Below are positions 56,280 to 64,000 of a DNA stretch of 64,000 nucleotides, one piece after another. Within the stretch, counting starts at the first letter, position 1; every line of letters begins with the position of its first letter. Location: NCBI RefSeq assembly GCF_001887355.1, contig NZ_MPIN01000013.1:6409-70408 (forward strand), read 5' to 3'. The DNA is from Cystobacter ferrugineus (lineage in GTDB: Bacteria; Myxococcota; Myxococcia; Myxococcales; Myxococcaceae). The notes under the pieces were generated by a model. The model made no database searches. It was not told the DNA's origin and saw only the letters and a list, made by a program, of their open reading frames with translations. Position numbers and translations under genes: made by a program.

Positions 56280-56354
<75 letters not shown>

Positions 56355-56441: not shown

Positions 56442-56516
<75 letters not shown>

Positions 56517-60367: not shown

Positions 60368-60495
60368 CCCCAGGAGGATACCTGCCCGGGCGCGGGGTGC
60401 AGGACGCATGGAAGCGGGGATCAGGAACAGAGAGGGAGAACTGCTGACGGGTGTGGCGCACCAGACCGGAGCAGAGGCCGCCTGTCGATAAGGGA

Positions 60496-60524
60496 TTGAC
60501 AGACGCCCGCTGTGCGTTTATCTG
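60496..60524 (+). promoter_or_regulatory. Sigma-70 promoter of the metL leader
   Basis: TTGACA (60496-60501), a 17-bp spacer and TATCTG (60519-60524). The predicted start, near 60531, is exactly where the riboswitch-like fold begins. Confidence 0.7.
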
Positions 60525-60530
60525 CTGTCT

Positions 60531-60630
60531 CAGCATCAAGAGCGGCCTCCGCTTCACGCGGTGGCTCGACAACCTGGAGTCGGACCTCCAAGGTGTCCAA
60601 ACGATGCGGCTCGAGGAGAAATACCTCCCG
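60531..60630 (+). promoter_or_regulatory. Candidate SAM-I/SAM-IV clan riboswitch upstream of metL
   Basis: The RNA would fold into P1 GCAUC/GAUGC (60533-60537 with 60603-60607), P2 GAGC/GCUC (60540-60543 with 60564-60567) topped by CCGC/GCGG, P3 ACCUGGAG with CUCCAAGGU (60572-60579 with 60586-60594), and an outer hairpin GAGG/CCUC (60613-60616 with 60624-60627). AUCAAGAG at the 5' side and the GACAACC...AAGGUGUCC core are those of SAM-I-type aptamers; the absence of P4 inside the junction with a helix after P1 is the SAM-IV arrangement. The genes downstream, aspartokinase-homoserine dehydrogenase and cystathionine gamma-synthase, feed methionine synthesis, as expected for a SAM sensor. Confidence 0.65.
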
Positions 60631-60644
60631 GGCAATCCAAGCGT

Positions 60645-60673
60645 CCGAAGCAGGGGCCACCCCTCCGCTTCGG
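60645..60673 (+). promoter_or_regulatory. Stable hairpin after the aptamer, possible expression platform
   Basis: CCGAAGC-AGGGG pairs with CCCCT-CC-GCTTCGG (12 bp with a 2-nt bulge, CCA loop). No T-run. The remaining leader to the metL ATG (about 300 bases) has no further recognisable gene or strong terminator, so the switch mechanism is unclear. Confidence 0.5.
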
Positions 60674-60972
60674 TGAGAGAGGACCCCCGTGGTTCCATCC
60701 ACCCGTGCCGCATCCCTGAACGCCGCCGCTGACCGCTTCATGCCGTGCCGTCTCCCGGCCATGTGCATGCACCAGCTCCGCGTGGGCCGCGCTCGAATGC
60801 GCCGGCCCGGCGGCGAACGCTAGTCCGCGTCCGCCAGGGCTTCTCCTCCTCCCAACTCCTCTCATGCCGTGGGCGCGCGTGCGCCGCGACGGGCCTTCGT
60901 GTGCTCGGAGCGCGGGACGTGTCTGCCTTTGACCGTCTTCCCGGGCCCGAGCGGCCCTCCAGAGGTTCGCAG

Positions 60973-63474
60973 ATGAGCAGCGCTTCCTTCCAGGTGATGA
61001 AGTTCGGAGGTTCCTCCGTGGGCTCGCCCCGGCGGCTCCGCCAGGTCATCGAGCTGATTGGCAGACACGCGAAACAGGGGCCCCTCGCCGTCGTCGTCTC
61101 GGCCATGGGCGACACCACGGACTGGCTCATCGAAGCGGCGGGGCTCGCCACCCGGGGAGAGCTCGAAGGCGCGCTGACCGTGGTGGCGCGCATCGCCCAC
61201 CTCGCCAAGACGAACGCCGCCGCGCTGGACCCGGAGCGCTCCACGGCGCTCGCTGCGCGGGTGGATACCCTGCTCGCTCCCCTGCGGCAGCTCCTCCAGG
61301 GCATCTCCCTCACCCGCGAGTGCTCGGCGCCCTCGCGCGACAGGGTGCTCTCCTTCGGGGAGCTGGTCTCCGCCACGCTCCTCGCGGAGCTGCTCACGGC
61401 CTCGGGCACCGAGGCCACCTTCCGCGACGCGCGGGAGTTGCTGGTGACGGATGATCGCTTCGGCGCGGCCCGGGTGGATGTGGCGCGCTCGCGCGAGCGG
61501 CTCCAGGCGGCCGTGGCGGGCTGGGGGTCCTCCGTGCCCGTCCTCCCCGGCTTCATCGCCGCGACGCCGGACGGGCGCACCACCACGCTGGGGCGCAATG
61601 GCTCCGACTACACCGCGGCGCTGGTGGCCCAGGGCATCGACGCGACGGAAGTCACGGTGTGGACGGACGTGCTGGGCCTGCACACCGCCGATCCGGACCT
61701 CGTGAGCGACGCCTACCCCGTGGCGCACCTCACCCACGGCGAGGGACTGGAGCTGGCCGCCGTCGGCGTCCGCATGCTGCACCCGCGCACGATGATTCCG
61801 CTCATCGAGTCGGGCATCTCCCTGCGCATCCGCAACACGATGCACCCGGACCACCCGGGCACGCTCATCGACGCCATCGGCTCGCGCGACGGCCAGCGGC
61901 CCACGTGTATCGCCACCCGGGAGGAGCTCGCGTTGCTCGGCATCGAGGTGCGCAAGCTGTCGGACCAGTTCCAGCTCGGCGAGCGCGTGCTGGCCGCGCT
62001 GCGCGAGGCGAGCGTCACGGTGTGGCTGTCCACGCAGTCGGCGAATGGCCAGTCGATCGCCGTCGTCGTCCCCCGGCCGGACCTGCTCCGTGCCCGGGGC
62101 GCCCTGGAGAACGAGCTGGCGCAGGAACTGGCCCGGCATGAGGTGGAGCCCCTCGCCCTCCGCGAGCCGGTGACGCTGCTGACGCTGGTGGCCGAGGCCA
62201 TGGGGCAGGGCGCCAACGTGGCCGGGCGCTTCTTCGGCGCGCTGGGCGCGGTGGGCGTCAACGTGCGCGCGAGCGCCCAGGGAGCCAGCTCGCGCTCCAT
62301 CTCCTGCGTCGTGGACGCGGCGGACACCGCCATCGCCGTGCGCACCACGCACGCGGCCTTCAACCTGGCGCACCAGCAGGTGAGTCTCTTCCTCCTCGGC
62401 CGGGGCACCGTGGGCGGCCAGCTCCTGGCGCAGGTGCGCGCGCAGCAGGCGCTGCTCAGGGACAAGCACGGCATCTCCCTGCGGGTCGTGGGCCTCGCCG
62501 ACAGCCGGCGCGCCCTGTTCGACGCGGCGGGCCTGCCACTGGAGGGACTGGAGGAGCGGCTGGCGCGCGTGGAGCCGGTGTCCCCGGAGACGCGCACGCT
62601 GGTGCCGCTGCTGGACGAACTGCGCCGGCTGCCCGTGCCCATCCTCGTGGACTGCACCGCCGCGAGCGGCATCGAAGCGCTCTACACGGAGGCCTTCCGC
62701 CGGGGCATCCACGTGGTGGGGGCCAACAAGAAGCCGCTGGCGCTGCCGTGGGATGACCGGGAGGCGTTGCTCGCCGAGGCCCGGCGCCACCATGTCGCCT
62801 ACCACTACGAGACGACGGTGGCGTCCAGCCTGCCCGTCATCGACACGCTGGCCAACCTCGTGCGCACGGGCGACACCGTGCGCCTCATCACCGCGTCGCT
62901 GTCCGGCAGCGTGGGCTTCATCTGCAACGAGCTGATGGCCGGCGTCCCGCTGTCCGTGGCCGTGCGCACCGCGAAGGAGCGCGGCTTCACCGAGCCGGAT
63001 CCGCGCGAGGACCTGAGCGGCACGGACGTGGCGCGCAAGGCGCTCATCCTCGCCCGCGAGCTGGGGCTGCCCCTGTCCCTCTCCGACGTGGCGCTGGAGC
63101 CCTTCGTCCCCGAGGACCCGCGGCCCGGCGCTTCCGTGGACGCGTTCCTCCACGGGCTGAAGGCCCTGGACGCGGCCTTCGCGGACCGTGTCACGCGCTG
63201 CCGGAGTGCCGGCACGGTGCTGCGCTACCTGGCGCGCATCGATCCGTCGAAGGTGGGCACCGGCTCGCCCGTCATCCGCGTGGGCCCCGCCCCCGTGGAG
63301 GCCGGCCAGCCCGGGTCGGACCTGCGCGGCTCCGAATCCTTCGTGTCCTTCACCACCACGCGCCACAGCGACTTCCCGCTCGTCGTGCGTGGCGCGGGCG
63401 CGGGCGGCGCGGTGACGGCCTCGGGCGTGCTGGCCGACATCCTCCGCATCTCCCAGGCGCTGCGCGGCCGCTGA
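60973..63474 (+). CDS. metL: Bifunctional aspartokinase / homoserine dehydrogenase
   Basis: The product is 833 aa. The aspartokinase part (about 1-310) opens with VMKFGGSSVGSPRRL and has GFIAATPDGRTTTLGRNGSDYTAALVA; regulatory ACT-like domains (about 320-460) follow. The homoserine dehydrogenase part has the NADP site SLFLLGRGTVGGQLLAQV (about 470-487), then VGANKKPLA, ETTVASSLPVI and LSGSVGFICNEL. One chain therefore performs the first and third steps to threonine and methionine. Whether it answers to Thr (ThrA) or SAM/Met (MetL) cannot be read directly; the leader favours Met. Start at MSSASFQVMKFGG, AGAGG 10 bases upstream. Confidence 0.93.
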   Translation: MSSASFQVMKFGGSSVGSPRRLRQVIELIGRHAKQGPLAVVVSAMGDTTDWLIEAAGLATRGELEGALTVVARIAHLAKTNAAALDPERSTALAARVDTLLAPLRQLLQGISLTRECSAPSRDRVLSFGELVSATLLAELLTASGTEATFRDARELLVTDDRFGAARVDVARSRERLQAAVAGWGSSVPVLPGFIAATPDGRTTTLGRNGSDYTAALVAQGIDATEVTVWTDVLGLHTADPDLVSDAYPVAHLTHGEGLELAAVGVRMLHPRTMIPLIESGISLRIRNTMHPDHPGTLIDAIGSRDGQRPTCIATREELALLGIEVRKLSDQFQLGERVLAALREASVTVWLSTQSANGQSIAVVVPRPDLLRARGALENELAQELARHEVEPLALREPVTLLTLVAEAMGQGANVAGRFFGALGAVGVNVRASAQGASSRSISCVVDAADTAIAVRTTHAAFNLAHQQVSLFLLGRGTVGGQLLAQVRAQQALLRDKHGISLRVVGLADSRRALFDAAGLPLEGLEERLARVEPVSPETRTLVPLLDELRRLPVPILVDCTAASGIEALYTEAFRRGIHVVGANKKPLALPWDDREALLAEARRHHVAYHYETTVASSLPVIDTLANLVRTGDTVRLITASLSGSVGFICNELMAGVPLSVAVRTAKERGFTEPDPREDLSGTDVARKALILARELGLPLSLSDVALEPFVPEDPRPGASVDAFLHGLKALDAAFADRVTRCRSAGTVLRYLARIDPSKVGTGSPVIRVGPAPVEAGQPGSDLRGSESFVSFTTTRHSDFPLVVRGAGAGGAVTASGVLADILRISQALRGR

Positions 63475-63513
63475 CCTCTTCCCTTGCCCTCGCCGAATGA
63501 AAGAGCCCCTTCC

Positions 63514-64000
63514 ATGAAACTCGCCACCGCGCTCGTCCACGCGGGCGTGCGCCGGGACCCCACCACCGGCGCCGTCGCCGTCCCCATCTACCAGTCCGCC
63601 ACCTACCAACACCCCGCGCTCGGCCAGTCCACCGGCTACGACTACTCGCGCACCAAGAACCCCACCCGCAGCGCGCTCGAGGACGCGCTGGCCCGGCTGG
63701 AGGGCGGCAGCCAGGGCCTCGCCTTCAGCTCCGGCATGGCCGCGCTGCACTGCGCGCTCCAGCTCTTCGGGCCGGAGGACCACGTCCTCCTCACCGAGGA
63801 CCTCTACGGCGGGACGTACCGGCTGGTGGATCGCATCCTCCACGTGCCCTTCACCTTCGTGGACACCACGCGTCCGGAGGCGGTGCGCGCCGCGCTGCGT
63901 CCCAACACGCGGGCCATCCTCGTGGAGTCCCCTACCAACCCGCTGATGAAGACGGCGGACATTCCGGCCATCGCCGACATCGCGCACGAGGCCGGGGCGC
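63514..64000 (+). CDS. metB: Cystathionine gamma-synthase (PLP trans-sulfuration family), 3' end cut
   Basis: 162 codons visible. MKLATALVHAGVRRDPTTGAVAVPIYQSATYQH, YDYSRTKNPTRSALEDALARLEGG, AFSSGMAALHCAL and LVESPTNPLMK are signatures of the Cys/Met metabolism PLP enzymes; the PLP Lys lies beyond the window. It would join homoserine esters and cysteine, following the metL product; an O-acylhomoserine sulfhydrylase or cystathionine lyase role cannot be excluded. Starts 40 bases after metL, so co-transcribed and under the same leader. Confidence 0.88.
   Translation, partial: MKLATALVHAGVRRDPTTGAVAVPIYQSATYQHPALGQSTGYDYSRTKNPTRSALEDALARLEGGSQGLAFSSGMAALHCALQLFGPEDHVLLTEDLYGGTYRLVDRILHVPFTFVDTTRPEAVRAALRPNTRAILVESPTNPLMKTADIPAIADIAHEAGA

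Follow-up and report, generated by a model that had tools for sequence, protein, structure and literature searches.

A SAM-I/IV riboswitch before a methionine-pathway operon of Cystobacter ferrugineus and its possible action through a conserved upstream reading frame

Amino-acid attenuators such as those of the trp and his operons consist of a short translated leader whose control codons stand a few codons before the stop and whose hairpins overlap as alternatives. To our knowledge, few riboswitches act through an upstream open reading frame (uORF). This work concerns a leader of Cystobacter ferrugineus in which a SAM-I/IV aptamer, predicted to bind S-adenosylmethionine (SAM), is followed by a conserved uORF and then by genes for a bifunctional aspartate kinase/homoserine dehydrogenase (AK-HSD) and a metB-like enzyme. 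The leader lies on contig NZ_MPIN01000013.1 (assembly GCF_001887355.1, positions 6,409 to 70,408, forward strand), and all coordinates refer to this stretch of 64,000 nucleotides, called the window. We consider it somewhat probable that the riboswitch shuts the AK-HSD/metB operon at high SAM, and that it does so through a relay-type expression platform that acts on the leader peptide.

The SAM-I/IV family was published in 2010 from "several phyla, marine", as outlined in PMC2864571. The present aptamer resembles that outline in P1, in a P2 without an internal loop, in the P3 core, in the hairpin after P1, in a pseudoknot that joins the P3 loop to the 3' flank and in its location before methionine-pathway genes. 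P2 is continuous except for one mismatch and a position skipped in the Rfam model. By sequence comparison it is a member of this known family and not a new class, and it is not notable as a taxonomic outlier of the mainly actinobacterial SAM-IV, the point raised by an earlier note on this DNA that was made without database searches. According to the relevant part of PMC6890682, SAM-IV is marked by a divided P2 and by PK-1, an additional pseudoknot. The same source, in that part, ascribes a P4 helix to the SAM-I/IV class. Only about 5 nt separate P3 from P1 in this leader and the Rfam consensus likewise holds no helix there, a discrepancy that may be one of naming only. The locus departs from the outline in PMC2864571 in its platform: instead of being a Shine-Dalgarno sequence (SD) or part of a terminator, the 3' pseudoknot strand supplies the 5' arm of a hairpin, and this hairpin is in competition with another one that lies over the ribosome site of the uORF. 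It is this platform, with a uORF downstream of the aptamer, that is new here, the aptamer family itself being already known.

The nearest kind of system found is the B12 riboswitch of Mycobacterium tuberculosis ppe2, of which part of PMC11260477 states that uORF translation is the first target and that the masking stem gives way when no ligand is bound. The two leaders would share uORF translation as the first target of the riboswitch. They differ in ligand, and the ppe2 uORF is described there as overlapping the gene and tied to reinitiation, whereas the uORF here has no such overlap. In Xanthomonas, a SAM-I riboswitch detects initiator tRNA that is uncharged (PMC7270179, in part); it is similar in that a SAM riboswitch leader also reads methionine supply via tRNA. 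That portion of the report gives direct binding of the tRNA to the anti-SD strand and describes no uORF, whereas the second input here would be codon-dependent pausing of a ribosome. The Sinorhizobium metA SAM-II leader, as presented in part of PMC9373788, likewise has an upstream SD and AUG1 before the start that is used; it differs in riboswitch class, in an in-frame AUG2 74 nt downstream of the SD and in a validated terminator, and no separate conserved uORF is described in that part. Searches of the open-licence literature turned up no description of a uORF that accompanies a SAM-I/IV riboswitch, no paper on a SAM riboswitch in myxobacteria and, judged by title, no ribosome-profiling study of Myxococcus xanthus that deals with this leader, an absence that proves little as subscription papers mostly fall outside these searches. 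Like the trp and his attenuators, this leader has a short frame, candidate control codons near its stop and overlapping alternative hairpins. Unlike them, the leader has few control codons (4 internal Met in the window) and no U-tailed terminator, and ribosome entry is apparently gated by the riboswitch.

Membership of the aptamer in the family is the firmest result of the analysis. The aptamer (60528-60649, + strand) matched the Rfam family SAM-I/IV (RF01725) with 50.8 bits against a cut-off of 41.1 (E 2.3e-5; cmscan of the 64 kb with 4227 families, the output giving the best family of each clan only). P1 is formed by 60533-60537 and 60603-60607, the tip of P3 carries the loop strand CGGAC (60581-60585), the hairpin after P1, named P5, spans 60609 to 60633, and the complementary 3' pseudoknot strand GUCCG occupies 60643-60647. 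The earlier note had proposed an aptamer of this type and had named a model score above threshold and compensatory changes in P1-P3 as its checks. Both checks support the proposal. The score is as given, and none of P1, P2, P3, the hairpin after P1 or the pseudoknot is missing. For the second check, 27 distinct rows were aligned from 36 loci of the class; of the nine loci left outside, eight are 97.5-100% alike to a kept row and the ninth is L026. Over 33 named pairs, 98.5% of 887 cells were paired (98.1% in P5), and sliding the pair partners lowered the pairing to 30-49%. Both-side changes occurred in 12 cells at 7 pairs, of which 4 lie in P2, 2 in P3, 1 in P5 and 0 in P1, a level reached in 0 of 500 shuffles. 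P1 displayed one-side changes only, together with three unpaired cells.

The platform begins with a hairpin, HP (60645-60673, + strand; CCGAAGC/GCUUCGG), in which 12 pairs form in the fold, as the earlier note had counted. Because the 5' arm of HP overlaps the GUCCG strand, HP and the pseudoknot are mutually exclusive. The HP alignment comprised every one of the 24 distinct sequences found in the 35 loci other than L026; 93.3% of the cells of the outer seven pairs were paired, and both-side changes were found in 8 cells (0 of 500 shuffles) and at 3 pairs (20 of 500). The last GG of HP (60672-60673) is at the same time the first GG of a second hairpin, S (60672-60703, + strand; GGUG...CACC), which was obtained by folding with the GG blocked or free and which encloses the SD and the GUG of the uORF. 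The architecture of S varies by lineage, with a long form, forms of G055 and G056, and a GGCGG/CCGCC form in G082, G121 and G092, and its best fold used the shared GG in 29 of 29 leaders when segments were cut at that GG.

Constrained-energy runs were performed on 29 distinct platforms from the 35 loci, the leaders being related to one another. With a 20-nt tail, opening the uORF ribosome site cost a mean of 9.4 kcal/mol with the GG held in HP and 14.5 kcal/mol with the GG free, so that release raised the cost by a mean of 5.2 kcal/mol (range 1.7 to 6.1). Some rise is expected in any sequence and the shuffled mean was 2.0 kcal/mol; no more than 5 of 100 shuffles were as high in 20 of the 29 leaders, the window leader having 4 of 100. 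The HP-closed state was better than the pseudoknot-committed state by a mean of 3.7 kcal/mol (range -2.1 to 7.0), an advantage that the bare pseudoknot duplex, calculated at -7.0 kcal/mol with the loop cost not counted, could bridge.

Since HP is stable, G+C-rich, placed immediately behind the aptamer and incompatible with the pseudoknot, it might itself serve as an intrinsic terminator under pseudoknot control, which would make the leader a transcriptional switch. Yet the sequence that follows it is GGUGAGAGAGG or GGCGGAG, with no U residues, and HP would form without SAM, which is the wrong direction for a biosynthetic operon. This explanation is very improbable. A scan of the + strand of 60400-61000 for U-tailed hairpins or intrinsic terminators found none, in line with the earlier note, which had seen no classic terminator in the leader. 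A masking of the SD by the freed 3' arm of HP (CCUC with GAGG) was also considered and rejected as not general, the stretch being absent in G104 and G097.

The uORF (60689-60823, + strand) comprises 44 codons from a GTG start, VVPSTRAASLNAAADRFMPCRLPAMCMHQLRVGRARMRRPGGER followed by the stop, and is preceded by the SD-like GAGAGAGGA at 60675-60683, of which GAGAGAG is found in 24 of 24 aligned AK-HSD leaders. In all 31 riboswitch-bearing AK-HSD leaders a GUG after GGUGAGAGAG opens such a frame, of 35-46 codons. The same 31 leaders contain an invariant CGAAUGCG (60794-60801 in the window, + strand), read in the uORF as the codons Arg(CGA)-Met-Arg. The distance from the GUG to the last CGAAUGCG takes nine lengths from 78 to 111 nt, all of them multiples of 3 (31/31). 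An out-of-frame distance of 242 in G114 was discarded as due to a chance further copy of CGAAUGCG downstream, the true distance being 90. In 30 of the 31 leaders the stretch from the CGA to the end of the uORF stop measures 30 nt. As a control, the distance from the uORF stop to the AK-HSD start (149 nt in the window, 123-167 nt in the 30 leaders measured) was unphased, with 7/8/15 over the three phases. CGA encodes Arg in 41 of 41 RMR motifs of the uORFs, compared with 4.7% of the Arg codons in 12 downstream AK-HSD genes, and Met makes up 61 of 1224 uORF codons after the start (5.0%) versus 1.0% in the 12 genes. Each uORF has 1-4 internal Met, the window uORF having 4. In place of this frame, the four leaders found in G082, G121 and G092 have very short uORFs, MCRCYLP, MMCHPLN, MCCCRPPQR and MSRPALR.

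A function of the uORF product as a small protein was rejected, as its middle is unconserved and no Pfam match was found. Because the middle drifts freely, translation itself or its end would matter, and not the peptide. The absence of protein conservation in the middle also fits an explanation in which the downstream half is a structured RNA, made of two hairpins, A and B, and the invariant CGAAUGCG, and serves as the binding site of a protein or another RNA, with an open frame that is incidental. It would account for CGAAUGCG being kept as nucleotides, with a rare Arg codon in every RMR motif, and a core GGCCAUGCUCAUGCGUGGCC of riboswitch-free relatives, near-identical across genera, can by eye form an 8-bp hairpin. 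However, such an RNA predicts neither the phase-perfect lengths, nor the stop at 30 nt, nor the enrichment in Met, and some riboswitch-free versions have Cys-rich ends, for instance GECCPSCCR. We regard the structured RNA as quite improbable. Of its two hairpins, A (60784-60808, + strand) was recognized by eye and overlaps B (60805-60840, + strand; GCCCGGCGG/CCGCCaGGGC), whose loop contains the stop codon of the uORF in the fold of the window leader. When two subgroups of the 31 leaders were folded to a consensus, one of 16 and one of 9, each had a hairpin at the position of B, with other sequences. B is followed by a pyrimidine-rich tract (60840-60865, + strand) that from its base composition is a possible Rho-loading site; the 60 nt after the uORF stop have 45% C and 27% G in the window, and C exceeds G in 31 of 31 leaders.

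The preferred reading, in which the riboswitch acts through the uORF, joins these elements as follows. Without SAM, HP would be closed and would retain the GG needed by S, so that a ribosome could open up the SD and GUG of the uORF. In the presence of SAM, GUCCG would be captured by the P3 loop in the pseudoknot, the base of HP would be lost and the GG freed; S would then close over the SD and the start codon, leaving the uORF untranslated. A ribosome translating the uORF would finish on hairpin B, just before the C-rich tract, and would probably let RNA polymerase pass by preventing both Rho loading and B. An untranslated uORF would probably lead to early termination, most likely by Rho at the C-rich tract, and to lower expression of the operon. 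Expression could in addition be favoured when methionine is short, by a ribosome stalled at CGA-AUG on top of the 5' arm of B. This motif ahead of the stop probably represents what is left of a pause site for sensing methionine, one related to the Met-rich peptides of riboswitch-free relatives. A wider proposal, which we put forward only tentatively and hold to be possible rather than probable, is a leader with two inputs, in which the SAM riboswitch gates ribosome entry and the methionine-codon peptide sets how far the ribosome goes. The aptamer would have been built onto an ancestral Met (and Cys) attenuator, with the relay as the coupling. The uORF, the relay from pseudoknot through hairpin to ribosome site, and the methionine-rich leader peptides of relatives had all been missed in the earlier reading of this DNA.

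Several observations weigh against the relay and the role given to the uORF. The relay is supported by comparison and by constrained energetics and not by unconstrained folding: blocking the pseudoknot strand in an unconstrained fold of the platform did not consistently alter how accessible the SD was (0.33 and 0.33 in the window), and the relay became visible only with HP assumed closed. The competition between HP and S covers only two G-C pairs, and some leaders are energetically weak, with 61 of 100 shuffles as high in G082 and 30 of 100 in G099. Further pair types did not exceed the shuffles in the aptamer (152 of 500) or in HP (170 of 500). The strands of the pseudoknot, CGGAC and GUCCG, are complementary in 27 of 27 rows and never vary, so that covariation within the group cannot probe their pairing; among 15 loci of another phylum, 8 had differing complementary strands at about the same place, 3 had them off-place and 4 were not parsed. 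As to the uORF, a single internal Met is present in 9 of 31, the frame in G074 stops prematurely right after the CGA-AUG-CG motif, the middle lacks amino-acid conservation (differences of 36/55/39 by codon position over 24 non-independent pairs) and third-position G+C bias is not strong (0.72/0.70/0.81). Hairpin B is not uniform, single leaders such as L002, L016 and L029 folding otherwise; a consensus fold of the downstream leader over all 31 gave nothing convincing, with B absent, and 6 leaders belong to neither subgroup. Finally, no terminator was found on the + strand of 60400-61000, and Rho dependence is suggested by base composition.

An alternative is that the leader is simply an ordinary SAM-I/IV riboswitch in which the uORF is unimportant and other structures act directly on transcription or on AK-HSD translation. 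The firmness of the aptamer assignment and the outcome of unconstrained folding agree with it. Simple platforms are also apparent by eye elsewhere, as in G132, where a P3 loop CUCCUCC faces an SD-like AGGAGG, and in L102 and L106, which have hairpins and a U run after the aptamer. The conservation of SD and GUG, the preservation of the frame over nine lengths and the near-fixed stop would nevertheless lack an explanation; moreover, the AK-HSD start lies about 320 nt beyond the aptamer, and the scan of 60400-61000 gave no terminator. On balance we judge it unlikely.

The reading in which the uORF is gated by the riboswitch is linked by relatives to leaders that have a peptide and no aptamer. 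None of the six genomes of one group, g3, gave an RF01725 match, and two of the AK-HSD loci of g3 also gave none under a more permissive scan. The AK-HSD leaders of g3 carry a uORF such as VFRPVTRMPMSMEAMLMRGPGMRAFA, and the riboswitch-free leader peptides share the core EAMLMRGPGMRA or a close variant; the five that were counted have 4-6 internal Met. The end of the window uORF, ARMRRPGGER, resembles MLMRGPGMR and MHMRGPGGR of riboswitch-free leaders, and from this likeness and the common location the window uORF may be homologous to these peptides. Searching 147 genomes with the g3 leader DNA gave matches in 11, of which that in G085 was rejected as lying inside another ORF. A 27-base core, with up to 3 mismatches allowed, was found once each in 10 of 195 genomes, namely the six of g3 and G042, G086, G122 and G123, and a reversed-pattern control gave 0. 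Where it was read, the gene after the core leader is AK-HSD (g3) or metY, the latter over the TIGR01326 cut-off in G042 and G122 and assigned by eye in G086 and G123. In L084, L085, L086 and L087, which are riboswitch-free and have a metY-like gene next, a near-invariant 27-base core accompanies Met-/Cys-rich peptides ending GECC..., and these leaders are a candidate for an unnamed sulfur-amino-acid attenuator element. Riboswitch-free relatives with such peptides could reveal the evolutionary order, that is, whether the attenuator or the riboswitch came first.

RF01725 was present in 34 of 147 genomes of the class and in 36 of 195 genomes of the phylum, 35 of the latter over the cut-off; these searches applied stricter filters, by which weak matches are lost. 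The aptamer is the sole match in the C. ferrugineus genome at E up to 0.001, and L041 (Myxococcus dinghuensis), found via its AK-HSD gene, has an aptamer of 43.4 bits. The carriers include named Myxococcus, Pyxidicoccus and Citreicoccus, and the conservation of the leader there makes the relay and the role of the uORF testable in a laboratory myxobacterium. From the phylum of a Cyclobacteriaceae metagenome-assembled genome, 26 of 296 genomes had RF01725, and 22 of these exceeded the cut-off. Among further groups of the family that were searched by AK-HSD protein, the leaders read had no aptamer, and Rfam at E up to 0.1 found none in 9 loci. The distant AK-HSD genes L047, L049, L050, L051 and L055 were set aside as having no such leader; they stand close behind another ORF (metX-like by eye), and Rfam reported no SAM-I/IV at these five loci.

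Three matches lie away from recognized methionine genes. L058 (G132) precedes a 142-residue ORF without a Pfam match, and by eye its P3 loop can pair directly with the SD-like sequence before that ORF; L059 (G159) precedes a 275-residue ORF without a Pfam match; and L057 (G170), under the cut-off, is followed by an ORF with a weak helix-turn-helix match below the Pfam cut-off. In L043, from a genome labelled Comamonas sp. KCTC 72670, both the operon and the leader of Myxococcus are present, with 83% identity at the protein level; this label is probably wrong, and the counterpart G107 falls in the M. xanthus group.

Upstream of the aptamer, a promoter-like site was read directly from the sequence (60496-60524, + strand), with TTGACA at 60496-60501, a spacer of 17 nt and TATCTG at 60519-60524, so that both hexamers and the spacing named in the earlier note are present. 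A strict promoter scan of 60400-61000 reported none, because TATCTG fails the rule of the scan for the second hexamer. Of the 36 class loci checked, 35 have TTGAC no more than 60 nt before the aptamer, the sole exception being L026 of G132, which has another gene context. From the predicted transcription start to the AUG at 60973 the leader measures about 440 nt, the length given previously.

The AK-HSD gene (thrA/metL type; 60973-63474, + strand), supported by NCBIfam and Pfam, is preceded by an SD-like AGAGG at 60961-60965. The earlier name metL held as to AK-HSD and not as to type: in NCBIfam the protein scored 771 bits with the model for the type I bifunctional enzyme (NF006959, cut-off 726) and 481 bits with model II, under the cut-off of 582. 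The following gene (63514-64000, + strand, continuing beyond the window) encodes a metB-like pyridoxal phosphate (PLP) enzyme of Cys/Met metabolism of 375 aa, its full length having been read in L100. Its first 162 residues match Pfam Cys_Met_Meta_PP (PF01053); it passed the cut-off of none among the 25 NCBIfam models shown. Elsewhere, the aptamer precedes metY in G082 (over the TIGR01326 cut-off), a gene of the same Pfam family in G121 and apparently, by eye, the same gene type in one copy of G092. The other copy of G092 stands before an alpha/beta hydrolase (Pfam), metX-like by eye, and then an AK-HSD-like frame. The metY/metX-type riboswitch leaders L003, L006, L060 and L061 share, by eye, a stretch rich in A and C, for example AAACACAAACA, a short way ahead of the gene. 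The window also contains two identical tRNA-Met (CAU) genes (56280-56354 and 56442-56516), whose starts are 162 bases apart and which lie some 4 kb upstream of the methionine operon.

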